From Chitinophagaceae bacterium (GTDB lineage Bacteria > Bacteroidota > Bacteroidia > Chitinophagales > Chitinophagaceae), in assembly GCA_013140985.1 (NCBI GenBank), contig JABFRU010000051.1:1-45231 (forward strand): DNA of 45,231 nt, written 5' to 3'. A program made the position numbers and the translations under genes. The notes under the pieces are model-generated. The model saw only the letters and a program-made list of their open reading frames with translations. It was not told the origin of the DNA and made no database searches. Positions 25,010 through 38,455 of the stretch are shown piece after piece (position 1 is the stretch's first letter; each line of letters starts with the position of its first letter).

Positions 25010-26263
25010 CTAACTCCGCATCGCCACCACCGGGTCCATCCTGGCAGCCTGTCTTGCCGGGATGAAACCCGCCAGCACACCAACGATGATACAAATGACG
25101 ATGGCCAGTATCATATTATCAGTAGAAATAAAAACAGGAAAATTCAACACAGAAGTTAATAACTGTGAAAGAAGGAATACAAGAGTAAGGCCGATCAGCC
25201 CGCCGATGATGCAAAGGAAAGCTGACTCCAATAAAAATTCTGCCAGTATCACTCTTCGTTTGGCGCCAACAGCTTTTTTCAAACCGATCTGGTGGGTTCG
25301 TTCTCTTACCGACACAAACATGATATTAGCAACGCCAAACATACCAACAATGAGTGATAAAGCAGCAATCGCCCAGCCGCCCTGGTTCAAACCAACAAAT
25401 GCATCGCTGATAGCAGCGCTGAAATCATTTACATCATTCAGCGAAAAATCATCATCTTTTTTCGGGCTAAGTTTGTGAATAGCCCTCACCGTTCCGGTCA
25501 GTTCATTTTTCAATGCTTTACTGGAAAGATCATCTTGTCCCTGCACCATTATGAGCGGATCTGACCTTCTTTCATCCATGATGGTACGGGCAAATTTGTA
25601 AGGTAATATCACATTCTCATCAAAGTTCCAGCCGCCGATCATTTGCTTGCCCTGTTTTTTTATTACACCGATCACCTGCAATTTTTTTCCTCTTGCTACC
25701 ACCATTTTACCAATAGCTCTTTCAGGAACGCCAAATAATTTTTCTGCCACTGTAATGCCGATCACCATCACATTACTGCCATGGTTAAATTCTGCTTCTG
25801 AAATATACCGGCCTGTTATGATGTCAATGGGTTGAATAATGTTGAACTGTTCGGTGATGCCATACAAATTCACATTCGATAGTTGGTTATCTTCAAATTC
25901 AATATTGTCTTCCCGGTCAATTTTAAAAGCAGCGTACTTGGCAGAAGGAGTTCTTTCCATGATCTCTTTCATCTCAGCATATTTGGGCATAGGCCGCTTC
26001 ATATATTTCCAGTAAGGATAATCAGGTCCCCGGCCGGCGGTATAATCCCATTTGTCTAAGTAAATGGTATTGGTGCCGAGAGCTTTTATTTCATTCTGGA
26101 TGTTCCGTTCCAGGCTATTTACAACAGTCAGTACGCCAATGATGCAGAAGATGCCGATGGTAACGCCGAATAGGGAAAGGAAAGTACGGAGTTTATTTTT
26201 CCATAATTCCTGCAGCGCCATTTTAAAACTGCTGACAATGATTTCTATACTGCGGCGGACCAT
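25010..26263 (-). CDS. ABC transporter permease, MacB/FtsX type
   Basis: An N-terminal transmembrane helix (residues about 20-42, KLRTFLSLFGVTIGIFCIIG) is followed by a large periplasmic MacB core-like domain of about 230 residues, including VMVIGITVAEKLFG and GKKLQVIGVIKKQG. Three C-terminal transmembrane helices follow, with the family motif RERTHQIGLKKAVGAKRRVIL before helix 3 and FIPARQAARMDPVVAMRS at the C-terminus. Such permeases work with an ATPase and often a membrane-fusion protein to move lipids, peptides or macrolides. No ATPase is adjacent, so the partner must lie elsewhere. A TACCTTTG promoter box lies just 4 nt upstream of the ATG. Confidence 0.92.
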   Translation of the reverse strand: MVRRSIEIIVSSFKMALQELWKNKLRTFLSLFGVTIGIFCIIGVLTVVNSLERNIQNEIKALGTNTIYLDKWDYTAGRGPDYPYWKYMKRPMPKYAEMKEIMERTPSAKYAAFKIDREDNIEFEDNQLSNVNLYGITEQFNIIQPIDIITGRYISEAEFNHGSNVMVIGITVAEKLFGVPERAIGKMVVARGKKLQVIGVIKKQGKQMIGGWNFDENVILPYKFARTIMDERRSDPLIMVQGQDDLSSKALKNELTGTVRAIHKLSPKKDDDFSLNDVNDFSAAISDAFVGLNQGGWAIAALSLIVGMFGVANIMFVSVRERTHQIGLKKAVGAKRRVILAEFLLESAFLCIIGGLIGLTLVFLLSQLLTSVLNFPVFISTDNMILAIVICIIVGVLAGFIPARQAARMDPVVAMRS

Positions 26264-26267
26264 GGAG

Positions 26268-26275
26268 CAAAGGTA
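26268..26275 (-). promoter_or_regulatory. -7 box TACCTTTG abutting the permease start
   Basis: On the minus strand TACCTTTG ends 4 nt before the ATG of the permease gene (26261-26263). This predicts a leaderless or nearly leaderless transcript. The same geometry is seen at 8319. Confidence 0.5.
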
Positions 26276-26297
26276 GTTTGAGAAAGTGAATAAAGCA

Positions 26298-26427
26298 GTA
26301 GTGTTATGATTTGAAATTTGGAAAATAAATTATGGCCACAGAGATATTGAGAACCACAGAGTAGTTCTCTGCGAAACCCCTTTCCTCTGTGGTTCTCTGT
26401 GGGCTAATTTTCAAACCAGGACAGTAC
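26298..26427. mobile_element. Palindromic MITE-like element, copy A (CACAGAG subtype)
   Basis: The ends are GTAGTGTTATGATTTGAAA (26298-26316) and, inverted, GTACTGTCCTGGTTTGAAA (26409-26427), 15 of 19 identical. Each arm then carries two CACAGAG units (CCACAGAG at 26336-26343 and again at about 26353-26361; CCTCTGTGGTTCTCTGTGGG on the right arm). The whole unit can fold into one long hairpin. It occupies the space between the permease promoter and the interrupted NTF2-like gene. No target-site duplication is visible, so the insertion may be old. No coding capacity. Confidence 0.6.
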
Positions 26428-26500
26428 CAGACTAGTTTGGTTTCTTACATTTCACTTTATGAGTCTAAATTTGTCTTTCATTCAAGCGAAACATTTTTTT

Positions 26501-26929
26501 ATGGTTTTCATCCTGCATGTATTTGTAGCATTTGTCACTGCGGCTGCCTTTCAGCCGGGACAAGAACAGGACAGGGATGAAATAAAAATAGTGCAGGAAT
26601 TATTCAGGCTTCGAAATGAGCACAAGGCCGATTCCATCGAACAGTATTATGCCGATACAGTGAAAGTGTATATGAAGTACTTAAAAAATGTTCCCCGCAA
26701 GACTATCACACAAAGCGATAAAATTTTCTGGAAGGCCCATCCAAAAAATAAATTTGAAATAATAGGGCCATTACAAATTACAGATGCAGCAGGCATCGCA
26801 ACGGTCACCATTTTTGGTAAAGAATATCTTGACGGTGTAAGCTTTTAGTATGAAAAGATCGAAATAAAATTCAACCCGGATAAAAAAATATTTTCTTTCA
26901 GAGGATTTAAGTGGAAGAAAGAAAATTAA
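26501..26929 (+). pseudogene. Exported NTF2-like protein gene interrupted by an in-frame TAG
   Basis: The start at ATG 26501 gives a signal peptide (MVFILHVFVAFVTAAAFQPG); an in-frame ATG at 26459 is also possible. The reading frame encodes an NTF2/SnoaL-like cone fold (IVQELFRLRNEHKADSIEQY, VATVTIFGKEYLDGVSF) and meets TAG at 26846-26848. Translation in the same frame then continues with YEKIEIKFNPDKKIFSFRGF and KWKKEN to TAA at 26927-26929, exactly the missing last strands of the fold. This makes an amber mutation (for example from CAG or GAG) very likely; a sequencing error or stop readthrough are alternatives. Truncated, the protein would lack its closing strands. The final stop overlaps the convergent CDGSH gene stop by 3 bases. 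Confidence 0.7.
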
Positions 26930-27153
26930 ACAGTTTTCTTGGGCGGAAGATCAAACGCTATTGCTTCATGTTCAAAATGCCCGTTATGTGAACCATCGCA
27001 AAACGGTTTGTTTTTTGAAAGACCGCAACGGCAAAAAGAAACAATTTCTCTTCCTTGTAAATTATAAACGCCACCGTTCCTGTCCACTACTTCAAAATCG
27101 CCTTCTACTTTTAAAGACCCGTTATTGTTAACTGTGATTTTAGTTTTTGACAT
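26926..27153 (-). CDS. CDGSH-type iron-sulfur protein
   Basis: This 75-residue protein has a short basic N-terminus, a beta-strand pair (SLKVEGDFEVVDRNGGVYNL) and the complete CDGSH cluster ligation motif: Cys41-Arg-Cys43, then Cys52 and His56 in CRCGLSKNKPFCDGSH. It should bind a redox-active [2Fe-2S] cluster with the 3-Cys, 1-His coordination of mitoNEET-type proteins. Its role in bacteria is not established; electron transfer or Fe-S transfer is likely. The gene is monocistronic, followed at its 3' end by the convergent interrupted NTF2-like gene. Confidence 0.93.
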   Translation of the reverse strand: MSKTKITVNNNGSLKVEGDFEVVDRNGGVYNLQGREIVSFCRCGLSKNKPFCDGSHNGHFEHEAIAFDLPPKKTV

Positions 27154-27321
27154 TTTATTATTTTAAGTTATTAAGTGCAAAGTAATGGCATTAAATCAGT
27201 ATTGCTGCGGCTAAAAAAAAGAGTAGTCCTTATTTCATGTTGTTGGTGGAGGAAAACAGCAACCACAGCGAATTATTTTTTTGGAAATACCCCCTGCGAC
27301 GGAAAAAGGATTGGCAGCCTT

Positions 27322-27708
27322 TTAGTCGGCGCTGCTGGTATATTTATAAGTGTACCACTTATCAGTTGGCTTTACATATAACCGGAATGCAGAGTCATCA
27401 ATTTTTTCTATTGGCCATTCTGTTAGTCCTGCTAAAGACAATTCACCATTAATTATTTTCCAGGTACTTGGGTTTTTTCCGGATTTTAACTCATAGCCAC
27501 CGTCTGATTTTAGCTTGAGCAATGCCATGGGCGCCATGCTTTCCTCTGCTGTCCATATTTTACCTTTAAGCCATCCTTCCAGTTCAACATCTGCAGCAGA
27601 TTGAACGGGTTTTTCTTTCTTGACGAATTTTGGTTTGGCTTTTTCTTCACTACTGTTACAACTGTATATAATGAGCAGACTGAAAAAGATTACACAGGCT
27701 TTTTGCAT
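27322..27708 (-). CDS. Lipoprotein of unknown function
   Basis: The lipoprotein signal is MQKACVIFFSLLIIYSC (lipobox IIYSC, Cys17). A Lys/Pro-rich linker (EEKAKPKFVKKEKPVQ) leads to a 75-residue beta-rich domain with LKGKIWTAEE, LLKLKSDGGYELKSG, TWKIINGELSLAG and FRLYVKPTDKWYTYKY strands. This meander resembles a small lipocalin-like fold of the kind found in Bacteroidota lipoproteins; family assignment is uncertain. It is 168 bp upstream of the CDGSH gene on the same strand, and the interval in between holds no recognisable gene. Confidence 0.65.
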   Translation of the reverse strand: MQKACVIFFSLLIIYSCNSSEEKAKPKFVKKEKPVQSAADVELEGWLKGKIWTAEESMAPMALLKLKSDGGYELKSGKNPSTWKIINGELSLAGLTEWPIEKIDDSAFRLYVKPTDKWYTYKYTSSAD

Positions 27709-27815
27709 GATTTTTATTTTTAATAGTCAGGATTATTTTTTGATTGTGGCCATTCACAAAAATTACATACTTGTAAGATAATAGAATAATGGTGAAAGGT
27801 TGATATTTTTTTTTG

Positions 27816-27955
27816 GTAATGACTCAGTTTGAAACCTGTATTTGTAATATGTCCACAGAGTTGCACAGAGATCTTGAGAACCACAGCGCAATTCTCTGCG
27901 TAACTCTTATCCTCTGCGGCTCTCTGTGGGCCAATTTTTCAAAGTGAGTCACTAT
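27816..27955. mobile_element. Palindromic MITE-like element, copy B (CACAGAG subtype)
   Basis: The ends are GTAATGACTCAGTTTGAAA (27816-27834) and, inverted, ATAGTGACTCACTTTGAAA (27937-27955), 16 of 19 identical. Inner arms carry CCACAGAG-TTG-CACAGAG on the left and CCCACAGAG-AGCCGCAGAG on the right (inverted). The element is flanked by AT(9)G on the left (27805-27815) and AT(6)G on the right (27957-27964), which fits a target duplication in a T tract that later slipped. It fills most of the 303-bp gap between 27709 and 28011, with only the RF3 promoter beyond it. Non-coding. Confidence 0.65.
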
Positions 27956-27994
27956 AATTTTTTGGGCATTACAAAAATTGTAACAAAGAGGCGT

Positions 27995-28002
27995 TACCTT
28001 TG
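27995..28002 (+). promoter_or_regulatory. -7 box TACCTTTG of the RF3 gene
   Basis: TACCTTTG matches TAnnTTTG and lies 9 nt before the ATG at 28012. TTG at 27978-27980 is a possible upstream -33 element, though its spacing is short. Confidence 0.55.
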
Positions 28003-28011
28003 CGCCTCTTT

Positions 28012-29610
28012 ATGAAATATCACAGCGAAATACAACGAAGAAGAACATTTGCGATCATCTCTCACCCGGATGCGGGGAAGACAACACTCACTGAAAAATT
28101 CCTGTTGTTTGGCGGCGCTATACAAGTGGCCGGCGCCGTAAAAAGCAATAAGATCAAAAAGTTTGCGACCAGCGATTTTATGGAGATCGAAAGACAAAGA
28201 GGTATCTCTGTCGCTACTTCGGTGATGAGTTTTGAGTATAATAAGATTTTGATCAACCTGCTCGATACACCCGGTCACAAAGATTTTGCAGAAGATACGT
28301 ACAGAACATTGACGGCTGTTGACAGTGTTATATTGGTAATAGATAGTGTGAATGGGGTAGAAGCACAAACAAAGAGATTAATGGAAGTCTGCCGGATGCG
28401 GGATACACCGGTAATTGTTTTTGTAAATAAAATGGACCGGGACGGTAAGAACCGTTTTGACCTGCTGGAAGAAATAGAAAAAGAATTAAGCATTTCACTT
28501 CACCCGATGACATGGCCGATCAACAGCGGCAAGGAATTCAAAGGCGTTTATAATTTGCATGATAAGAATTTATTATTGTTCACCGCCAATACAAAAGCTT
28601 CAGATGAAGATGCGATCTCTATTTCCAATTTAAAAGATGCGATACTCGATGAAAAATTAGGTGAGAAAGATGCGGCTCAACTGCGGGAAGATGTGGAGTT
28701 GGTAGATGGAGTGCATGGCGAACTGAAATCAGAAGATTATTTAGCCGGTAAAGTGGCACCGGTCTTTTTTGGAAGCGCCATCAACAATTTTGGTGTGAAG
28801 GAAATGCTCGATACGTTCATCCATATTGCACCGACTCCGAGAAGCAGGGAAACAACAGCGAGAGTGGTAGATGTGGAAGAAGATAAACTCAGCGGTTTTG
28901 TTTTTAAGATACATGCCAACCTCGACCCCAAGCATCGGGATCGTATTGCTTTCTTCAGGGTTTGTTCCGGAAGATTTGAGAGAAATAAATATTTCCATCA
29001 TGTTCGTTTGGATAAAGATGTTCGTTTCAGCAATCCTTATTCTTTTATGGCAAGAGATAAGAGTATCATTGAAGATGCTTATGCCGGCGATGTGGTGGGA
29101 TTATTTGACACCGGAAATTTCAAGATCGGTGATACATTGACCGAAGGGGAAGATTTTTATTTCACCGGTATCCCTTCTTTTTCACCCGAGATATTCAAAG
29201 AAGTGGTGAATAAAGATCCTATGAAGACAAAACAACTGGAAAAAGGATTGTCGCAACTGACAGATGAAGGAGTGGCTCAGTTGTTCACACAGTTTGGCGG
29301 AAATAAAAAGATCATTGGTTGTGTAGGTGAATTGCAGTTTGAAGTAATTCAATATCGCTTGCTCCATGAGTATGGTGCTTCTGTTATTTTCAACAACCTT
29401 CCTTTTTATAAAGCATGTTGGTTGACAAGTAACGATCCGGCAAAACTGCAGGATTTTTTGCGATTCAAACAAGCCAATTCTGCTGAAGATAAGGATGGTC
29501 ATCCTGTTTACCTGGCACAGAGTGAATGGTTCCTGAATACAGAAATGACCAATAACCCGGATATTGTTTTTCATTTTACTTCAGAGATACATAAAGAAGT
29601 GAGTAGTTAG
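28012..29610 (+). CDS. prfC: Peptide chain release factor 3 (RF3)
   Basis: A translational GTPase with G1 SHPDAGKTT at residues 17-25, G2 [12 protein letters not shown]3 [16 protein letters not shown] and G4 NKMD. The [20 protein letters not shown] start and [19 protein letters not shown] are specific to RF3. RF3 recycles RF1/RF2 from the ribosome after termination. The start at ATG 28012 gives 532 residues; a TTG at 28000 in the same frame lies inside the -7 box and is rejected. The last residues VSS and the stop codon fall in GTGAGTAGTTAG, the first part of a repeated AGTAG-rich stretch, so the C-terminus may have been modified by that repeat. Confidence 0.97.
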
Positions 29611-29678
29611 TAGAGAGTAGCTAGTAGGGAGGTTTACAATAGCACGCAACCCCTACTTGCTACTCGTTCCTGGCTCCT
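29603..29678. repeat. AGTAG-rich hairpin after prfC with inverted AGGAGCCAGG
   Basis: GAGTAGCTAGTAGGG (29615-29629) pairs with CCCTACTTGCTACTC (29651-29665), 14 of 15 matched apart from one position, across a 21-nt loop. Downstream lies CCTGGCTCCT (29669-29678), the inverse of the 10-mer at 2667, then an A8 run. The repeat also supplies the prfC stop codon. Such GAGTAG and GGAGCCAGG strings look like dispersed low-complexity intergenic repeats. It could be a transcription terminator in the minus direction. Confidence 0.45.
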
Positions 29679-29702
29679 AAAAAAAAGGACAAAATCTATA
29701 GT

Positions 29703-30206
29703 ATGGTAATTTTCGAAACCAAAAGATTGATCGTCCGCCAATTCAACGAGAATGATAAGGACAATTTTTTTCTGCTGAGTGGCGATCCAACTGTTATGCA
29801 ATATATCAGGGAAGTAAGCACTAAGGAACAAAGCGATAAATTTTTACAGGAGAATATTGAAGCTTATGAAATCAATCCCCATAAAGGCCGTTGGGCAGTT
29901 ACGAGCAGGGGAGACGGATCATTTGTTGGTTCATTTGCGATCATACCATTACCATCAGAACCGGGTAAGATACAATTAGGTTATTCATTACGGATTGAGA
30001 ATTGGGGCAAAGGTTATGCAACAGAACTAACCAAAGCTGGATTGGAGTATTTTATGAATAATTATTCTTTACCTGAAATTTATGGTGTAACAGAAGTGCC
30101 GAATATTGCTTCGCAAAAAGTTTTACTGAAAGCAGGGTTTCAACCGGCAGGTTCTTTTATTGAGAATGAAAAGGAATTGCTGATGTTTGTGGTGAAAAGA
30201 ATTTGA
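29703..30206 (+). CDS. GNAT family N-acetyltransferase (RimJ/RimL-like)
   Basis: This 167-residue protein begins ETKRLIVRQFNENDKDNFF, the RimJ/RimL-type N-terminal strand, followed by a PTVMQYI helix. The acetyl-CoA-binding motif is IENWGKGYATELTKAGLEYF, with the GKGYATE pyrophosphate loop. The VPNIASQKVLLKAGFQ segment is the typical C-terminal loop and helix. It should transfer an acetyl group to a protein N-terminus or small amine; the substrate is not deducible. It lies 92 bp after prfC and ends 2 bp from the convergent surface protein gene. Confidence 0.9.
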   Translation: MVIFETKRLIVRQFNENDKDNFFLLSGDPTVMQYIREVSTKEQSDKFLQENIEAYEINPHKGRWAVTSRGDGSFVGSFAIIPLPSEPGKIQLGYSLRIENWGKGYATELTKAGLEYFMNNYSLPEIYGVTEVPNIASQKVLLKAGFQPAGSFIENEKELLMFVVKRI

Positions 30207-30208
30207 AC

Positions 30209-33200
30209 TTAGCGGATCAGCGCAAAAGTTCCTTTTCTGAAAACTTCCGGCTGACAAGTGGTTTTTGCTTTGACCATATAAACAAAAACATATGAGTCCT
30301 GTGGTATGCCTTTGTATGTTCCGTCCCAGCATTTATTTGGATCTGTAGTAAAAAAGACCCTTTCGCCCCAGCGATTGTAAATGCTGAACTCCAATTCTGT
30401 GATCGTTCCCCATTGTTTGATGCCGTAGCAATCGTTCAATCCATCGCCATTGGGCGTAAATGCAGTCGGCATTAAATAACCTCCGTTTGCATTCGGACTT
30501 ACTTTTACGATTACATTGGCAGAATTGCTGCACCCCGAAGCGTCCGTGCCAGTTACAATGTAAGTTGTTGTCGTCAATGGCGTCGCAACAGGGTTTTGGA
30601 GATTTGGATTATTAAGTGTTGCGCCGGGTGACCAGGCATAGGTGGATGCTCCATTTGCCGATAACTGGCTTTGCGAGATGCTGCAATCAATATCATTGGA
30701 TCTTGAAGCAGTGACGACGGGTAATTGCAAAACAGTTATTGTTGTAGAAAGATTACCGGTATTATTACATAAAGTATCAGATATCTGAACAGAATAAATT
30801 GTAGTTGTAGTTGGTGTTGCAACAGGATTGGCAATGGTCGCATTGTTCAATGATGCGGCAGGCGTCCAGCTATACAGGTCTCCGCCCGATGCCAGAAGTT
30901 GTATGTTGCCGTTCCTGCAAACATCGTCAGGTGGAGATATCGAAAAAGTGGCAGCAGTTCTGACATTGACTTGTACAGAATCCCTTTTAGTACAACTATT
31001 AGCCCCGGTCACTGTTACATAATACAAAGTGCTGGCAGCAGGAGTAGCAACAGGATTTGGAGCAGATGCATTGTTCAATGTTGCAGCAGGTGACCAGCTA
31101 TAAGTGCCTCCGCCGGATGCAAATAATTGTGCAGATCCGGCTGTGCAGATCGTTGTATCGTTGGATGTAGTTACTGCCGGTGCCGGGTTGACATTGATCC
31201 ATACTGAATCTTTTGCTGAGCATCCATTCGCATTGGTACCGGTAACTATGTATTGTGTGGTTGTTAATGGAGTAGCGATGGGGTTGGGGATATTTGCATT
31301 ATTGAGACCTGTTGCCGGAGCCCATGAATAAGTGGATGTACCTGTTGCATTCAGTTGGATACTTGTTCCTTCGCAGATCGGTGTGTCGGCATTGGTAACA
31401 ACACTGGCGGAATCGACGATCACATTCTTTGTAATGCTATCCGTGCATCCGTTGATATCGAACACGACCAATTTCACCGTAAATGTCCCGAGAGTAGAAT
31501 AAGTATGACTTGTATTTTGTGTGTTGGCTGTTCCGCCATCACCGAAATACCATTGCCAGCTTGCCATTGGATTGGTATTAGTATACCCGAAACCTTTAAA
31601 GTCAAATGTTTTGCAAGCTGTAGCGCTGTCTTTTATCCTCACGGAATCAATATTCGGCTTGAATGGAACAAGAGCAACAGGGACTGAAAGAGAAAAAACA
31701 TTTATACCGGGCAATCCGGGCGCTGCTCCATAAGCAGTATTTCCCCCCTGGACAATAACACCATTCAGTCCACCTGCATTGGTGGCAATAACATTGGCGG
31801 GCAATGAATTTTGTTTAACCCAAAGAACTCCACCACCACCACCTCCTCCTGGTCCTACAAATCCAGGCGCCACTGTATTGCCCATCATATTAGCACCTTT
31901 ACCTCCTGATACATCCACCTGCAAGTTATTGATATAATTATTAGTGTTGAGAAGTACTGTGCCACCGGCACCACCGCCGCCCATTCCGTCGTGTGTTACA
32001 TACGTTGGTGAAAATACCGGCTGATAAGCGCTGTCTCCTTTTGAAATAATCTTCCTGCTATTGTTTTTTATATAATCTGCATTAATGATAACCAATCCGC
32101 CACCGTTCCCTCCATTATAATCTGCATTGAAGGTTGGGTCATCAAATTGATTATTGCAATGACCTGCGCCACCACCACCTCCCATGAATATCTTATTATT
32201 GGTTGTGTTGTAAGTAAGACTGTTGCCTGGCCAGCCCCAGTTCTGTGAAGTAAGATAATTTGGACATCCATTATTCCATTCGTTTCCTCCTCTTCCTCCT
32301 TTGTTTCCGTTGGATCCTCCCGCACCACCTGAATTTGCATTCATCCCGCCACCACCACCATTGGCAGCAGGTCCTTTTCCTGAATTGCGGTTAGCGCTAA
32401 GGAATGTAATACCTTCTCCTTTTCCCGCAGCATCCAAAGTATTATTGGGGGCATAAAAATTAGTAACAGAGCAGGTGAAGGTATTGGAATTTGAATTAGG
32501 CATGATGCCTTTTAAAAAGCCTTTGCCACTCGTATTGATATCTGCATTCAATTCAAGCGTATCCCTCACATTCACTACCAATACACCTCCCTTACTGCCA
32601 TCCCATGGAAGACATGTCAGCGTTGAGTTAACCAAAGCACTTTGATAATATGGCACCCTGATCAGCTGGACTTTTCCAACAGGGACATCATACTGCCGGA
32701 TGATCGTGTTCATTAATTCAACAACATTTCCTGCCTTGCTTTTTACATAATTGAACTCATAGTTCCCGGCATTTTTGTAATCGGTGATGGTGCCAAAGGC
32801 AGCTGTATTGGTTGAGTCGATAACAGCGCCTTTCATCTGTATCATTAAAACAGTATCACCGGCATTGAATGCACTGGCATCTTCCACCGTAAGTAAGTTT
32901 TTACAAATATCAAATGCAAGAACAGGCGTATAATTATTAATGATATTACTGATCGGTACTAAACAGTTCGGAGTGACATTTATGGATAAACTGTCTTTGC
33001 AGCCATTGATATCTGTAACTACCAGTTTGACCGTATAGGTTCCCCCGGACGCATATGTATGAGAAGTATTTTGCGTGTTGGCTGTGCCGCCATCTCCGAA
33101 ATACCATTGCCAGCTTGCAATAGGATTTGTGTTAGTATATCCGAAACCTTTAAAGTCAAATGAATTGCAACTAGTGATGCTATCTTTTATTCTGACCGAA

Positions 33201-35251
33201 TCGATATTGGGTTTGAAAGGAACATTATCAATTGGGATAGAAAGATCAAATGAAGTCGAACCTAATTGCCCGGGAGTAGCTCCCCACGGATCATTGCTAT
33301 AGGCTGTACATACTCCGTTTTGTCCGCCACTAACAGTTACACTGGATCCAACTGGTTGGCTTGGACTTGAAAACCAAACCTTACCGCCACCGCCACCGCC
33401 GCCGGGACCAACTTTTAAAAACCCGGATGCAGTCATATTTCCCCCCTGACCTCCTTGTATTTGATAAAGTGAGACACCAATATAGTTGTTGACCTTTGAG
33501 AGAACAGTACCACCGGCACCTCCACCTCCCATTCCATCATGACAGCCGGAAGTGGTAGCACCACAAGCCGCAGCGGCATTTCCATTGGCGAGTACCTGGA
33601 AGCCATTCGGTTTAAATTTATCTGCCATTATAATGGCTATCCCGGCTCCATTTCCTCCTGTTGCAATAAAAGCTTCAGGATTATTAGTGTGACCGCCACC
33701 TCCGCCACCACCCATAAATATTTTATTGACAGCATTAGAGTAAGTCAATGCTTTTCCTCCAATACCACGGTTATCGAATGGGACAGTTGTATTGCAGGGC
33801 GATCCTTCAAAATTATAACCACCAAATCCTCCCAATGCAGAATTAGAACCACCACCGCCACCGGAGTTGTGAGAATTTCCACCACCGCCTCCATTGGCCA
33901 ATGCACCCTTACCAAATGATTTTGCTGCGGAAACTTCTGCTATTCCTTCTCCTTTTCCTGAAGCGAGGTCAGGATTCACAGGGTAATAAAAATTATTTTC
34001 ATAACAATAAAATGCAGGAGGATTAGTGAATGGATCAACTCCTCCTCTGAAACCTTTACCACTTACATCGATATTAGCAGCCAGTTGAATAGTATCCTGT
34101 ACATTTAATACCAATACGCCCCCTTTGTTTCCATCCCATGGCAGGCAGGTAAGTGTTGAAGTGATATTTGCATTCGGATAATAGGGAACTCTTATTAGCT
34201 GAACCTTGCCGGCCGGAATATCATATTGCCGGGTCATAACATTTTTCAACTCAATAATGTTTCCGGTTTTGCTTTTTACGTAGTTTATTTCATAATTGCC
34301 GGCATTCTTATAATCTGTAATTGTTCCGAAAGCGGCAGTATTCGTGGAATCAATAACCGCACCTTTCATTTGTATGATCATCACCGTATCTCCGGTGTTA
34401 AATGTACTGGCATCTTCTACGGTGATCCTGGTATTTGTGCATGGATCGTTTGAAAGTGCAATTACCGGAGTGTAGGTGTTAATGATGTTGCTGATGTTTG
34501 TACCTGTCAACGACAAGCAATCGCCATAAGCACTTACTTCACTTGCATTCAATGCCCTGTCATAAATGCGGACCTCATCCATTACACCATTGAGCCAATA
34601 AGGATACGATGAGTTATTCATTCTTCCTAAGAAAAGATCATGTGTGCCGTTGAAGGTAAGTCCGCCGGAAGGCGCCGATACTTTTAACTGGCAGTTCACA
34701 TACAGTTTGGCTGTTGTCCCATCATTGGTGTATACAACGCTGTACCATGTGCCGATCTGGATATTAGGAGAATAGCCCGGCGCCGGTGCCATGATATCTA
34801 CTCCATAGAAATTTTGATGGATCTGATCAGGAGAAGGGATTACACAATTCTGCATGTTAGTATAAGGGTTGTCATCAAACCGAAGCCCATAATTGCCTGG
34901 AAGATAATCCTGGTCGCCTCTCATTACTATACTATTGCCATGGCATGTACCATTATAAAAGCCACTTACTTTTACCCAGGCACATACCGATATTGTGTTG
35001 GCCGTATTGAGTGTGGGCGAATTCGGGATTCGCATATAATTATCAATCCCGTTGAATAAATAAGCACTGTTCGGATTGCCAAAACGATCTGTGGTCAGAG
35101 TAGCACTATTGAAAACCGGGTTATTATTATTACCGCTTACATCATTTGCATTTCCGTTAAACGGATAATGGGCCATTAGACCCTGGTTAAGGTTAACCTG
35201 GGCAATAGCAGCATTACTGGACAATAATAAAAGGAGTAAGACCTTTTTCAT
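30209..35251 (-). CDS. Giant T9SS type B (CHU_C) surface protein with LamG, duplicated Gly-rich/PKD modules and Ig-like repeats
   Basis: A signal peptide (MKKVLLLLLLSSNAAIAQ) precedes a concanavalin-like LamG domain (residues about 25-240, YLFNGIDNYMRIPNS and LNGVMDEVRIYDRAL). Two homologous modules follow, from residue 253 and from about 767. Each has a beta region (TVEDASTFNTGDTVMIIQMK), a Gly-rich linker with GGGGG runs, and a PKD domain (SWQWYFGDGGTANTQNTSHT). Then come four Ig-like units of about 75-85 residues with the pattern YxWxPaxxLNNxxxxNPvATP. The C-terminus (FTPNGDGLNDCYGIKQWG, IYNRWGERVFF) is the CHU_C type B sorting domain, which sends the protein through T9SS to the surface. 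It is likely an adhesin or matrix protein. Confidence 0.93.
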   Translation of the reverse strand: MKKVLLLLLLSSNAAIAQVNLNQGLMAHYPFNGNANDVSGNNNNPVFNSATLTTDRFGNPNSAYLFNGIDNYMRIPNSPTLNTANTISVCAWVKVSGFYNGTCHGNSIVMRGDQDYLPGNYGLRFDDNPYTNMQNCVIPSPDQIHQNFYGVDIMAPAPGYSPNIQIGTWYSVVYTNDGTTAKLYVNCQLKVSAPSGGLTFNGTHDLFLGRMNNSSYPYWLNGVMDEVRIYDRALNASEVSAYGDCLSLTGTNISNIINTYTPVIALSNDPCTNTRITVEDASTFNTGDTVMIIQMKGAVIDSTNTAAFGTITDYKNAGNYEINYVKSKTGNIIELKNVMTRQYDIPAGKVQLIRVPYYPNANITSTLTCLPWDGNKGGVLVLNVQDTIQLAANIDVSGKGFRGGVDPFTNPPAFYCYENNFYYPVNPDLASGKGEGIAEVSAAKSFGKGALANGGGGGNSHNSGGGGGSNSALGGFGGYNFEGSPCNTTVPFDNRGIGGKALTYSNAVNKIFMGGGGGGGHTNNPEAFIATGGNGAGIAIIMADKFKPNGFQVLANGNAAAACGATTSGCHDGMGGGGAGGTVLSKVNNYIGVSLYQIQGGQGGNMTASGFLKVGPGGGGGGGKVWFSSPSQPVGSSVTVSGGQNGVCTAYSNDPWGATPGQLGSTSFDLSIPIDNVPFKPNIDSVRIKDSITSCNSFDFKGFGYTNTNPIASWQWYFGDGGTANTQNTSHTYASGGTYTVKLVVTDINGCKDSLSINVTPNCLVPISNIINNYTPVLAFDICKNLLTVEDASAFNAGDTVLMIQMKGAVIDSTNTAAFGTITDYKNAGNYEFNYVKSKAGNVVELMNTIIRQYDVPVGKVQLIRVPYYQSALVNSTLTCLPWDGSKGGVLVVNVRDTLELNADINTSGKGFLKGIMPNSNSNTFTCSVTNFYAPNNTLDAAGKGEGITFLSANRNSGKGPAANGGGGGMNANSGGAGGSNGNKGGRGGNEWNNGCPNYLTSQNWGWPGNSLTYNTTNNKIFMGGGGGAGHCNNQFDDPTFNADYNGGNGGGLVIINADYIKNNSRKIISKGDSAYQPVFSPTYVTHDGMGGGGAGGTVLLNTNNYINNLQVDVSGGKGANMMGNTVAPGFVGPGGGGGGGVLWVKQNSLPANVIATNAGGLNGVIVQGGNTAYGAAPGLPGINVFSLSVPVALVPFKPNIDSVRIKDSATACKTFDFKGFGYTNTNPMASWQWYFGDGGTANTQNTSHTYSTLGTFTVKLVVFDINGCTDSITKNVIVDSASVVTNADTPICEGTSIQLNATGTSTYSWAPATGLNNANIPNPIATPLTTTQYIVTGTNANGCSAKDSVWINVNPAPAVTTSNDTTICTAGSAQLFASGGGTYSWSPAATLNNASAPNPVATPAASTLYYVTVTGANSCTKRDSVQVNVRTAATFSISPPDDVCRNGNIQLLASGGDLYSWTPAASLNNATIANPVATPTTTTIYSVQISDTLCNNTGNLSTTITVLQLPVVTASRSNDIDCSISQSQLSANGASTYAWSPGATLNNPNLQNPVATPLTTTTYIVTGTDASGCSNSANVIVKVSPNANGGYLMPTAFTPNGDGLNDCYGIKQWGTITELEFSIYNRWGERVFFTTDPNKCWDGTYKGIPQDSYVFVYMVKAKTTCQPEVFRKGTFALIR
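31413..32953 (-). repeat. Internal duplication, module 2
   Basis: This is the C-terminal copy, beginning ISNIINNYTPVLAFDIC and ending near VFDINGCTDSITKNV. Its end is approximate. It has the same order as module 1: beta region, Gly-rich linker (GGGGGMNANSGGAGGSNGNK), PKD domain. Equivalent points in the two PKD domains are 1554 bp apart. Confidence 0.85.
32954..34495 (-). repeat. Internal duplication, module 1
   Basis: This is the N-terminal copy of a 514-residue module in the giant surface protein, beginning ISNIINTYTPVIALSNDPC and ending with the PKD domain (VTDINGCKDSLSINV). Long stretches are the same as module 2, for example GAVIDSTNTAAFGTITDYKN and SWQWYFGDGGTANTQNTSHT. At DNA level some blocks differ at few third positions while others have diverged strongly. 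Confidence 0.85.
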
Positions 35252-35333
35252 CAGTTACGCAAAGATGTTAGGGTGCTTAAAACTACACAAAAAACCGCTG
35301 GAATACTGTGCGGCCTAAGTTGATGAGTGTCAA

Positions 35334-36677
35334 TTAAAATTTTCCGGAAATGCCGGTATAATTATGCGGAGTTACCTTCTTCAATTCTTTTTTTATATCG
35401 TTTCCGATCTTCAATCCATCAATAAAGTCATGGATCGTTTTTTTATCGATCTTCTTATTTCCTCTTGTAAGATCTTTCAGTGCCTCGTATGGATTAGGGA
35501 AATTCTCTCTTCTCAAAATTGTTTGTATCGCTTCCGCTACAACTGCCCAGTTATTGTCGAGATCTTCATACAACTTCTGGTCATTCACAATTAATTTGTC
35601 AAGACCTTTTTCAACAGATCGTAAAGCGATCATCGTATGTGCAACAGGCACACCAATATTGCGGAGCACTGTTGAATCGGTCAGGTCTCTTTGTAGTCTT
35701 GATATGGGAAGTTTGGAAGAAAGATGTTCGAATATCGCATTGGCCATCCCCAAATTCCCTTCTGCATTTTCAAAATCAATGGGATTTACTTTATGCGGCA
35801 TAGCAGAAGAGCCAACCTCGCCTTTCTTTGTTTTTTGAGTAAAGTATTCCATCGATACATAGGTCCAGATATCCCGGCAAAGATCAATGAGGATATTATT
35901 GATGCGTTTGATACAATCAAAATGGGCCGCTAAACTATCATAGTGTTCGATCTGGGTAGTGAATTGCTGGCGATGTAAACCCAGTTGCTCCATGAATTCA
36001 TTACCCAGTTTTATCCAATCGACTTTTGGAAAAGCGATATGATGTGCATTGAAATTGCCGGTAGCGCCGCCAAATTTTCCGGAGAAGGGAATATTGATGA
36101 ATTGTTCTACCTGGTTCTCTATTCTTTCAGCATAGACCATCATCTCTTTTCCCAACCTTGTAGGGCTGGCCGGTTGCCCATGTGTATGCGCCAGCATCGG
36201 GATGTCTTTCCATTTGTTGGCCAGTAGCTTCAATTCAGTATTCAGGTTCAATAGAGCAGGCAGGTATTCATATTCGATCGCATGTTTCCATAATAAAGGA
36301 ACGGCAGTATTGTTGATGTCCTGTGAAGTGAGTCCAAAGTGTATCCATTCCTTTGCTTCCTTGCCGCCGCATTTTTCCAGTTCATTCTTTAAAAAATATT
36401 CAACAGCTTTTACATCATGGTTGGTGGTAAATTCAATTTGTTTGATCTCCTGGGCATCTTCCGGTCCGAAATCTTCTGCCAGTTTTTGCAGATGTTTGAT
36501 CGCTTTGCCGGGAAGTTTGAAGAATTTTTTGTTCTCCAGGAATAACAAATATTCTATTTCAATATTGATCCTGTACTTCATTAAACCATATTCAGAAAAA
36601 TATTCATCAAGATGTTGTACATGTTTGCGATAGCGGCCATCAACAGGTGAAATAGAGGTGAGTGCTGTTAGTTCCAT
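35334..36677 (-). CDS. purB: Adenylosuccinate lyase
   Basis: This fumarase/aspartase superfamily enzyme begins MELTALTSISPVDGRYRKHV, the N-terminus of the E. coli-type PurB. The superfamily signature GEVGSSAMPHKVNPIDFENA carries the mobile catalytic Ser loop. HFGLTSQDINNTAVPLL and MLAHTHGQPASPTRLGKEM provide the substrate-binding Thr/Ser and the catalytic His pair. It acts twice in purine synthesis (SAICAR to AICAR, and adenylosuccinate to AMP). Length (447 residues) is normal. It is divergent from mqnA. The nearby minus-strand -7 candidate TATTTTTG (36720-36727) could drive it and would overlap the mqnA leader. Confidence 0.97.
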   Translation of the reverse strand: MELTALTSISPVDGRYRKHVQHLDEYFSEYGLMKYRINIEIEYLLFLENKKFFKLPGKAIKHLQKLAEDFGPEDAQEIKQIEFTTNHDVKAVEYFLKNELEKCGGKEAKEWIHFGLTSQDINNTAVPLLWKHAIEYEYLPALLNLNTELKLLANKWKDIPMLAHTHGQPASPTRLGKEMMVYAERIENQVEQFINIPFSGKFGGATGNFNAHHIAFPKVDWIKLGNEFMEQLGLHRQQFTTQIEHYDSLAAHFDCIKRINNILIDLCRDIWTYVSMEYFTQKTKKGEVGSSAMPHKVNPIDFENAEGNLGMANAIFEHLSSKLPISRLQRDLTDSTVLRNIGVPVAHTMIALRSVEKGLDKLIVNDQKLYEDLDNNWAVVAEAIQTILRRENFPNPYEALKDLTRGNKKIDKKTIHDFIDGLKIGNDIKKELKKVTPHNYTGISGKF

Positions 36678-36707
36678 GACTGGTTTTTAATGAAGCATTT
36701 GTTCCGT

Positions 36708-36715
36708 TACCTTTG
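36708..36715 (+). promoter_or_regulatory. -7 box TACCTTTG upstream of mqnA
   Basis: TACCTTTG fits TAnnTTTG. It ends 18 nt before the TTG proposed as the mqnA start (36734). An apparent earlier in-frame TTG at 36713 is part of this box and cannot be a start if the box is used. Confidence 0.55.
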
Positions 36716-36733
36716 CCCGCAAAAATAACTCAA

Positions 36734-37486
36734 TTGGGCAAGATTCGTGTAGGCATTGTTAATTACCTCAATACAAGACCGCTGATATATGGGTTGCAAC
36801 GACCACCTGTTTCAGACCTTATCGAATTGAAAGGTGATTATCCATCCAGGTTGGCGGATATGCTGATGAAGGATGAAATTGATGTGGGGCTCATCCCGGT
36901 TGCTGTTATTCCGCAGTTACCGTCCTGTCATATTATCGGGGAACATTGCATCGGTACTGAAGGTGAGATCGCTTCGGTGGCATTATTCAGCGAAGTACCG
37001 ATGGATGAGATCAAAAGAATTTATCTCGATTATCAGAGCCGCACTTCTGTTGCTTTGCTAAAATATCTTGCTAAAGAATACTGGGGAATCAATCCTGAAT
37101 TTGTGCAGGCTGTTGATGAAGATTACCGGAAAGAGATCAAAGGAACAACAGCAGGGCTGGTGATCGGCGACCGGGCTTTTGAACAACGGAAAATATCCAC
37201 TTTTATTTATGACCTCGGTTCTGAATGGAAAAAAATAACAGGATTACCATTTGTATTTGCTGTTTGGGTAAGTGTAAAGGAATTACCGCAGGATTTTCTC
37301 CGGGAATTTGATAAAGCCAATGGTCTTGGACTTCAATACATCGATGAGATCGTTGAACAAACCCCCTTCGGGCTGTACGATCTTTCCAAGTATTATAAAC
37401 TGCATCTCAGTTATCATCTTGATGAAAGAAAAAGAGCCGGAATGAAGCTATTTCTTAAATACATATCAGAATCCATCGTTGTGTAG
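36734..37486 (+). CDS. mqnA: Chorismate dehydratase MqnA (futalosine pathway of menaquinone synthesis)
   Basis: The protein begins KIRVGIVNYLNTRPLIYGL and continues with GDYPSRLADMLMKDEIDVGLIPVA, the MqnA/MqnD periplasmic-binding-protein-like fold. LDYQSRTSVALLKYLAKEYW and GLVIGDRAF lie at the hinge of the two lobes. MqnA converts chorismate to 3-enolpyruvyl-benzoate, the first step of the futalosine route. There is no ATG anywhere before the conserved Lys; the nearest plausible start is TTG at 36734, giving 250 residues. The TAG stop ends precisely where mobile element C begins, and the duplicated target includes the stop codon. Confidence 0.92.
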   Translation: MGKIRVGIVNYLNTRPLIYGLQRPPVSDLIELKGDYPSRLADMLMKDEIDVGLIPVAVIPQLPSCHIIGEHCIGTEGEIASVALFSEVPMDEIKRIYLDYQSRTSVALLKYLAKEYWGINPEFVQAVDEDYRKEIKGTTAGLVIGDRAFEQRKISTFIYDLGSEWKKITGLPFVFAVWVSVKELPQDFLREFDKANGLGLQYIDEIVEQTPFGLYDLSKYYKLHLSYHLDERKRAGMKLFLKYISESIVV

Positions 37487-37615
37487 GTAGTGTCTCATTA
37501 TGAAAAATAAAGGCGTCCCACAAAGACACAAAAACCACAAAGTGGTTAAGATCAATATGCCTTTTTTGTGTTCTTAGTGCCTTTGTGGGAAACAAAATTG
37601 AAACTGATACACTAC
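37487..37615. mobile_element. Palindromic MITE-like element, copy C (CACAAAG subtype), with 10-bp target duplication
   Basis: The ends are GTAGTGTCTCATTATGAAA (37487-37505) and, inverted, GTAGTGTATCAGTTTCAAT (37597-37615), 14 of 19 identical. The inner arms carry CCCACAAAG and CCACAAAG on the left and, inverted, CCCACAAAG and AACACAAAA on the right. The element is flanked by the perfect 10-bp direct repeat CGTTGTGTAG at 37477-37486 and 37616-37625. This is the hallmark of transposition. The left copy of the duplication ends with the mqnA stop codon. The element contains no gene. Confidence 0.75.
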
Positions 37616-37654
37616 CGTTGTGTAGTTTATCCCTTGTTTCTGGGGCTTTTGCAA

Positions 37655-37662
37655 TAAATTTG
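37655..37662 (+). promoter_or_regulatory. -7 box TAAATTTG of the glycan operon
   Basis: TAAATTTG matches TAnnTTTG, with a TTG at 37634-37636 placed 18 nt upstream as a -33 element. It lies 16 nt before the rfbF ATG (37679) and is the only good promoter seen ahead of the ten-gene co-directional run. It is 39 nt beyond the end of mobile element C. Confidence 0.65.
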
Positions 37663-37678
37663 CGCCTAATTATTAAAT

Positions 37679-38455
37679 ATGAAAGTAGTAATATTTGCCG
37701 GCGGCTTAGGTACCCGTATTTCGGAAGAGACCGAAGCCAAACCAAAACCAATGGTAGAAGTGGGTGGCAAACCCATTCTCTGGCATATTATGAAAATGTA
37801 CAGCCAGTATGGTTTCAACGAGTTTATCATTTGCCTTGGCTACAAAGGATATATCATCAAGGAGTATTTCATGCATTATTTCCTTCATAATTCTGATATC
37901 ACCATTGAACTGGGCAGTAATAAGGTTGAAGTGCATGGCACTAATACTGAATCATTCAAAGTCACATTGGTTGATACCGGGCAAAACACCAAAACAGCGG
38001 GAAGATTACAAAAGGTAAAAAAATACCTGGGCAATGAAGATTTTATGCTGACCTATGGTGATGGTGTAAGTGATATGAATATGCAGGACCTGCTGAAGTT
38101 TCATCAATCACATAAAAAAATAGCCACCGTTACAGCTGTTCAGATGGATGCAAGATTTGGCGGGATGGATCTGGCGGGGAGTGGCGAAGTCATCTCTTTC
38201 CGGGAAAAGGCCAAGGATGAAAGTAAATGGATCAATGGCGGATTCTTTGTACTAAAGCATGATGTTTTCAAATATCTTGATGGTGATATGACGGATATGA
38301 TGTGGGAAGATGAACCGTTGGAAAAGCTGACAGTGGATGATCAACTGGTGGCTTATAAACATAAAGGTTTCTGGAAATGCATGGATGCACTCAGGGATAA
38401 GTTAGAACTCGAAGCCCTCTGGCAGAATAACCAGGCTAAATGGAAGATCTGGTAA
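37679..38455 (+). CDS. rfbF: Glucose-1-phosphate cytidylyltransferase
   Basis: The nucleotidyltransferase signature is FAGGLGTRISEETEAKPKPM, followed by VEVGGKPILWHIMKMYSQYG and FIICLGYKGYIIKEYF. TYGDGVSDMNM supplies the metal-binding Asp and WINGGFFVLKHDVF and VDDQLVAYKHKGFWKCMDAL complete the RfbF pattern. Length (258 residues) matches. It makes CDP-glucose from CTP and glucose-1-phosphate. It is the first gene of the operon and its stop TAA overlaps the next start as TAATG. Confidence 0.97.
   Translation: MKVVIFAGGLGTRISEETEAKPKPMVEVGGKPILWHIMKMYSQYGFNEFIICLGYKGYIIKEYFMHYFLHNSDITIELGSNKVEVHGTNTESFKVTLVDTGQNTKTAGRLQKVKKYLGNEDFMLTYGDGVSDMNMQDLLKFHQSHKKIATVTAVQMDARFGGMDLAGSGEVISFREKAKDESKWINGGFFVLKHDVFKYLDGDMTDMMWEDEPLEKLTVDDQLVAYKHKGFWKCMDALRDKLELEALWQNNQAKWKIW

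Follow-up and report, generated by a model that had tools for sequence, protein, structure and literature searches.

Three palindromes of similar build lie in the window, by which we mean the whole 45,231-nt stretch of contig JABFRU010000051.1 from Chitinophagaceae bacterium (GenBank assembly GCA_013140985.1), and they raise the question of whether they move and, if so, by which enzyme. The home genome (G000; genomes, contigs and loci carry our own G, C and L numbers) is a 3.86-Mb draft of 83 contigs, of which the window is contig 6. A preliminary description, made from the letters of the sequence, had taken the palindromes for miniature inverted-repeat transposable elements (MITEs), and the data presented here support this. 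As non-autonomous miniature transposons, they are very probably mobilised in trans by an IS1-like DDE transposase. Copies are named below after the starts given in the preliminary description (26298, 27816 and 37487); the features of the window are the following.

37486..37616, forward strand: MITE copy 3 (CACAAAG core), 131 bp including one extra terminal base at each end
37478..37485, no strand: 8-bp target duplication gttgtgta, left of the 37487 copy
37617..37624, no strand: 8-bp target duplication gttgtgta, right of the 37487 copy, 8/8 match
37517..37589, no strand: heptad hairpin inside the 37487 copy, CCCACAAAG...CTTTGTGGG
27815..27956, forward strand: MITE copy 2 with CACAGAG core, 142 bp when the additional end bases are counted
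27807..27814, no strand: flank octamer tttttttt, left of the 27816 copy
27957-27964: partner octamer attttttg, right of the 27816 copy, 6/8 match, low complexity (T run)
27853..27929, no strand: CACAGAG hairpin inside the 27816 copy
26297..26428, forward strand: decayed MITE copy 1 with CACAGAG core, 132 bp when the additional end bases are counted
26336..26402, no strand: CACAGAG hairpin inside the 26298 copy

All three copies were found where the preliminary description had placed them, each between open reading frames (ORFs) as it had stated, and its estimate of 14-16 identical bases among the 19 of the two ends agrees with our count by eye (15, 16 and 14 for the 26298, 27816 and 37487 copies, respectively). 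The length of the proposed 19-nt ends needed correction: each end is one base longer, which moves the borders to 26297-26428, 27815-27956 and 37486-37616, and the 8-bp flanking repeat sits directly outside these corrected borders. The ends of the 37487 copy read GTAGTGTCTCATTATGAAA and GTAGTGTATCAGTTTCAAT. The octamers flanking the 26298 copy agree at 3/8 positions, so that its duplication is not preserved. By their interiors the window copies split into two sub-families, one with a CACAGAG and the other with a CACAAAG core.

The preliminary description had named a scarcity of further copies as an argument against mobility; many more copies are present in the home genome. The 37487 copy as query yielded 76 matches at E up to 1, and 25 places, including the window copy itself, matched at E ≤ 4e-25, several matches being 94-98% identical. 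Relatives of the 27816 copy are full-length in C39 (94%) and C12 (89%) and partial in C53 (84%). Three CACAAAG-type copies (L015, L016 and L017) are mutually identical and lie on different contigs, a sign of recent movement. The MITEs measure 119-142 bp with the extra bases and have inverted ends and no transposase gene. By a simple ORF call, none of the 27 two-ended copies lies wholly within an ORF; L021 overlaps one ORF end. A search for the end pattern elsewhere in G000 with up to three mismatches gave 83 forward and 74 reverse hits, where the reversed pattern used as a control gave 55 and 52, so that chance swamps any signal at this stringency. Two additional places had one mismatch: C79:4269, a palindrome with CACGAAG units and one recognisable end, and C73:2365, which falls within an ORF.

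Target duplications were examined at these 27 two-ended copies by comparing the 8 bases on each side at offsets 0 to 3, with the borders of seven copies, clipped by blast, set by hand. Left out were L009 and L036, which have one recognisable end, and L037 and L039-L043, in which ends are missing, decayed or unpaired; a second MITE at L026 was found later and stands outside the tested set. At offset 1 the flanking octamers agreed at 8/8 positions in 16 copies, at 7/8 in seven, at 6/8 in three and at 3/8 in one (26298), i.e. 23 of the 27 agreed at seven or eight positions. At offsets 0, 2 and 3 the maximum agreement in any copy was 6/8, and about 2% of randomly re-paired flanks reached 7/8. Four of the copies belong to one tandem array (C37), which lowers the number of independent sites. 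The match at offset 1 defines the element as RGTAGTG...CACTACY with 8-bp duplications, and this restriction to a single offset, together with the recurrence of related copies across the genome, argues that the window copies are not a product of chance.

At the 37487 site, the upstream ORF (36713-37486) ends in a TAG stop made of the TA of the left duplication and the first G of the element; thus, the insertion left the upstream reading frame whole. The region 36713-38455 was used to query 18 genus members, and in two of them (G270 and G009) both flanking genes were matched and adjacent. The intergenic gap, counted on the translations, is 88 nt in G270, 68 nt in G009 and 192 nt in the window, and at this site, the one of the three that was compared, the gaps of both relatives hold no element of the 37487 type. 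The copy is therefore not ancestral there: the preliminary description had considered copies at the same positions in all relatives as the mark of a non-mobile repeat, and the 37487 copy is missing in both relatives that keep its neighbours. Since the neighbouring genes are just 68-80% identical, the empty site tells little about the age of the insertion, and since a MAFFT alignment of the sites was too diverged to give a clean gap, the evidence rests on gene spacing.

Stacked copies occur at two sites of the home genome, too few for a rule. At C79:81347 (L026, 1500-1757), two different MITEs, one per core type, stand in series with the octamer AGAAAAAG present three times. At C37:21960-22481 (L028), four tandem MITE copies have the octamer CAGCGAAC between them and CAGCAAAC at the left edge. 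Slippage could account for the C37 array; it cannot explain two different elements, and the C79 pair agrees with a second element having entered the same octamer. Such stacking of two different MITEs at a single 8-bp target could, tentatively, reflect a preference of the transposase for the edges of copies already in place.

Which enzyme recognises these ends? The preliminary description had proposed to look for full-length transposons with the same ends and a transposase, and such transposons were found in other genomes; their transposase is IS1-like, and 8-bp duplications border them. An order-wide pattern search matched 29 of 348 genomes, with two inverted-end pairs about 3.8 kb apart, and three candidate parents could be delimited.

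L129, in G221: transposon with matching ends, duplication aaatcctg
L130, in G106: transposon with matching ends, duplication gagaaaat
L140, in G185: transposon with slightly different ends, duplication ataaaatt

All three code for a related transposase (60-65% identity). The transposases of two of them were scanned and matched PF03400 (E 1.2e-10, 42 versus a cut-off of 24 bits); the matches were to IS1 profiles, and IS1595 and IS6 models matched more weakly. Another end pair, 4 kb apart at L137, was not counted, being without a matching duplication.

A scan of GTDB contigs with the transposase alignment gave 268 relatives, 80 of which were kept (these include two loci of the query itself, L175 from G106 and L197 from G185). 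The ends were then sought blindly, i.e. identical octamer pairs on either side of the transposase were located first and the inverted repeat was scored inside them. An inverted repeat of at least 13/16 was present at 53 of the 80 loci, and GGTAGTG begins at least one end in each of these 53; in controls with the right flank taken from another locus or reversed, none of the 80 reached 13. The transposon ends read GGTAGTGTCTCAGTTTGAAA, the commonest bases over 106 ends being GGTAGTGTCTCAGTTTGAAATT. Residues D66, D138 and E207 are conserved in all 54 transposases compared. Some loci come from isolates, which belong to Bacteroidota and Pseudomonadota (e.g. Flavisolibacter nicotianae, Mucilaginibacter gilvus, Roseovarius sp. 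217 and Formosimonas limnophila), while those from Acidobacteria, Nitrospira, Anaerolineales and WOR-3 come from metagenome-assembled genomes alone, in which misbinning is possible. The home-genome copies are dispersed and multiple and combine inverted ends and a fixed 8-bp duplication with ends that match an autonomous transposon of other genomes, the combination that characterises a MITE.

The parent transposons resemble the IS1 family in their GGnnnTG-type ends and 8-bp duplications. Duplications in the IS1 family are about 8-10 bp, and classical IS1 elements have about 0.7-1.2 kb and carry the transposase genes alone, in a frameshifted InsA/InsB layout. In contrast, the parent elements mostly have one transposase ORF of about 275-310 aa, the InsA/InsB layout was not seen in them, and the 51 transposase elements span 1947-4908 bp and hold further ORFs as passengers. 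The first bases of their ends, GGTAGTG, agree with the GGnnnTG pattern (positions 1, 2, 6 and 7 at 99-100% of the 106 ends), which passages of PMC6807381 give for most IS6/IS26 elements treated there and as common to the IS1 family.

Among the passengers, a small protein with the pattern KGGxARAxxLT...RSEIAxxAAxxRW was present in 37 of 55 elements according to a profile made from 30 of these, often near the element end. The family scans of the passengers covered 119 of 209 ORFs, the length limit being 125 aa, and some of the 119 are possibly not genes. In this set, 13 match PD-Lambda-2_B (PADLOC), 11 the P63C domain, up to five the RmrA model and one to three each Fic, MazF, PtuA, Abi_2 and NYN; judging by family name, a part of the passenger genes appears defence-like.

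Elements with IS1-like ends also occur as cassettes. L146 (G185:C96, 1829-4981) is a cassette of 3.15 kb with a perfect 8-bp duplication; it carries a Dcm-type methylase, Vsr and a pair of related proteins, each about 250 aa long, that lack a Pfam match, and by similarity no transposase is recognisable among its ORFs. L131 (= L114; G262:C4, 1104-1493) is a 390-bp cassette, likewise with a perfect 8-bp duplication, and its reverse strand apparently holds one ORF of about 105 aa (read by eye).

On viral contigs, 33 complete end pairs with an 8/8 duplication were found among the 120 exact-end stretches listed, and 22 of these pairs enclose a match to the transposase with E of 1e-3 or lower. Four viral-contig pairs of 396-454 bp hold only a weakly matching transposase fragment (E about 2e-5) and may be copies of one element. 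The sizes descend from full transposon over transposase-less cassette to MITE, as would be predicted for MITEs that originate through loss of internal sequence.

In the proposed mechanism, the ends of about 20 bp, (G)GTAGTG..., would be bound and cleaved by an IS1-like DDE transposase, which would be supplied in trans and generate the 8-bp duplications by a staggered 8-bp cut; the heptad-repeat hairpin of the interior would stand where the parent had its transposase and passenger genes. Several points weigh against this reading. No transposition event was observed, and the IS1-like transposase was not found in G000, a draft assembly in 83 contigs, either with one sequence as query at E up to 1 or with the alignment. 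The alignment search gave strong matches in the source genomes G106, G185 and G221 and also in G258 and G137 outside the query; among 24 other genus members, G009 alone yielded a match, to a fragment and weak (E 2e-4). No such ends were obtained at 27 of the 80 transposase loci, some of which may be cut contigs. Compared with the consensus of the transposons, the MITE ends in the accepted pairs carry 1-4 differing bases out of 19 (limit 4). Finally, the NCBI IS1 model NF033558 matches at E 4.9e-20 with 72 bits, under its curated cut-off of 100, a further difference from IS1. As the transposase was not found in G000, we infer mobilisation in trans, by the IS1-like enzyme or by a close relative missing from the assembly; possible reasons for its absence are loss of the home enzyme, a location on DNA outside the assembly, or divergence. 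IS256 was rejected as mobiliser, since PF00872 is without match in G000, while 6 of 14 control genomes match.

Two IS1595-family transposases do reside in the home genome (PF12762 matches at C46:5303, E 6e-42, and C9:990, E 2e-36), and one of them could have moved the MITEs instead. Both genes sit between inverted repeats with identical octamers outside, TCTTGATA at C46:4007-9898 and GGCATATT at C9:194-3969, and belong to elements with 8-bp duplications. The ends of these elements, GGTGACTATATACCTG and GGAGATGATATAGCAG, are however unlike GGTAGTGTCTCAGTTTGAA, and nowhere in the two stretches is a MITE end matched at more than 14/19 positions, so we regard this source as improbable. L451 (contig 46) is a 5.9-kb transposon of the IS1595 family whose ends read GGTGACTATATACCTGTTAGACCA; by eye, its cargo next to the transposase comprises a P63C-like gene and one resembling ABC/AAA-type ATPases. 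L452 (contig 9) is a second IS1595-family element with further ORFs and ends GGAGATGATATAGCAGTGAACACA.

The palindromes could also be structured RNAs or regulatory elements that are kept for their function and copied by recombination alone. Their intergenic placement and strong predicted hairpins (minimum free energy of -40 to -51 kcal/mol in the window copies, without a shuffled control) would suit such a role, but an Rfam search of 25900-37900, run to E 0.1, gave no match, and the duplications, the empty site and the identical copies at unrelated loci speak for insertion. This origin is quite unlikely, and a later regulatory effect of inserted copies is possible. Target duplications of 8 bp are a hallmark of DDE transposition. 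Movement as GTAG-tagged repetitive extragenic palindromic (REP) or bacterial interspersed mosaic elements by a REP-associated tyrosine transposase (RAYT) is the least credible of the three alternatives and highly improbable, for although the palindromic, intergenic copies with GTAG at both ends resemble the REP super-family as portrayed in PMC3733652, where RAYT is hypothesised to move the elements, the MITEs have units of about 130 bp with long inverted ends instead of the 20-40 bp of REPs, are bounded by 8-bp duplications and share their ends with full transposons that hold an IS1-like DDE gene.

CACNRAG-like heptads in inverted arms fill the MITE interiors. The CACAGAG and CACAAAG units noted in the preliminary description do lie inside the copies, but the same repeat also occurs without these ends: similar hairpins are present in G000, G021, G390 and G539, and most of the loci read lack recognisable GTAGTG ends. 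Of 198 genomes of the phylum, 39 contain a triple-heptad pattern, G000 being one of them, and they represent 29 of 102 genera; when the pattern was reversed as a control, four genomes matched (G368, G409, G486 and G508), with most of the matches in G486 and G409. In a blind duplication test on 44 heptad clusters from G000, G021, G390 and G539, inverted-repeat scores were 3-10 of 16, inside the 0-14 of the re-paired control, and we claim no duplications there; this test also missed two G021 copies (L260 and L261) with decayed ends that were read by eye. The transposase loci L158-L242 hold no heptad hairpin by the strict pattern. In this family, other interiors stand between similar ends, with CACATAG heptads in G209 and no heptads seen in G266, and this variety suggests that ends and core are separable modules, the hairpin having presumably been captured by the MITE. 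L256 (G021:C7:234600-235700) is a heptad hairpin with possibly different ends, GGCTACAAGC... and GCAGAACTTATC...; the octamer tcactatt lies on both sides by eye, and the blind test was not above control.

A comparable case within the Bacteroidota is BrickBuilt of Porphyromonas gingivalis, which the relevant part of PMC4596501 describes as a MITE with a trapped internal tandem repeat and ends like those of insertion sequences (IS) of its host. It is likewise a MITE in which ends and repeat core look like separate modules, and it differs in its end, CCGAAAGG..., and its 23-nt repeat unit. Passages of the ISsaga article (PMC3129680) treat IS copies with passenger genes, as well as MITEs and mobile insertion cassettes (MICs) that a cognate transposase activates; hence, all three classes, i.e. 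MITEs, cassettes without a transposase and IS with passengers, are kinds already known. The size series of those transporter IS and MICs is seen here too, and these passages name no element with the present ends or small accessory protein. None of the papers listed in our literature searches was seen to describe these ends, and the full-text matches to the end letters that were listed bear titles on unrelated subjects.

For the MITE family, these results provide a likely enzyme, a mechanism and a test. The home genome, with its many copies and no detected enzyme, offers a case in which mobilisation in trans and loss of the parent can be studied. Conceivably, although we propose this only tentatively, an undescribed transposon superfamily extends over several phyla and has the MITEs at the small end of its size range; its marks would be near-invariant ends, a conserved small accessory protein (KGG...ARW), exchangeable passengers rich in toxin-antitoxin and anti-phage types, and the IS1-like transposase. 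It would shed transposase-less cassettes, also on viral contigs, and an independent phylum-wide heptad hairpin would ride inside its MITEs. The results also link the MITE to a family of gene-carrying transposons with one set of ends, several host phyla and defence-type cargo, and with one end set and such cargo, a 20-base bait could collect new mobile defence genes.

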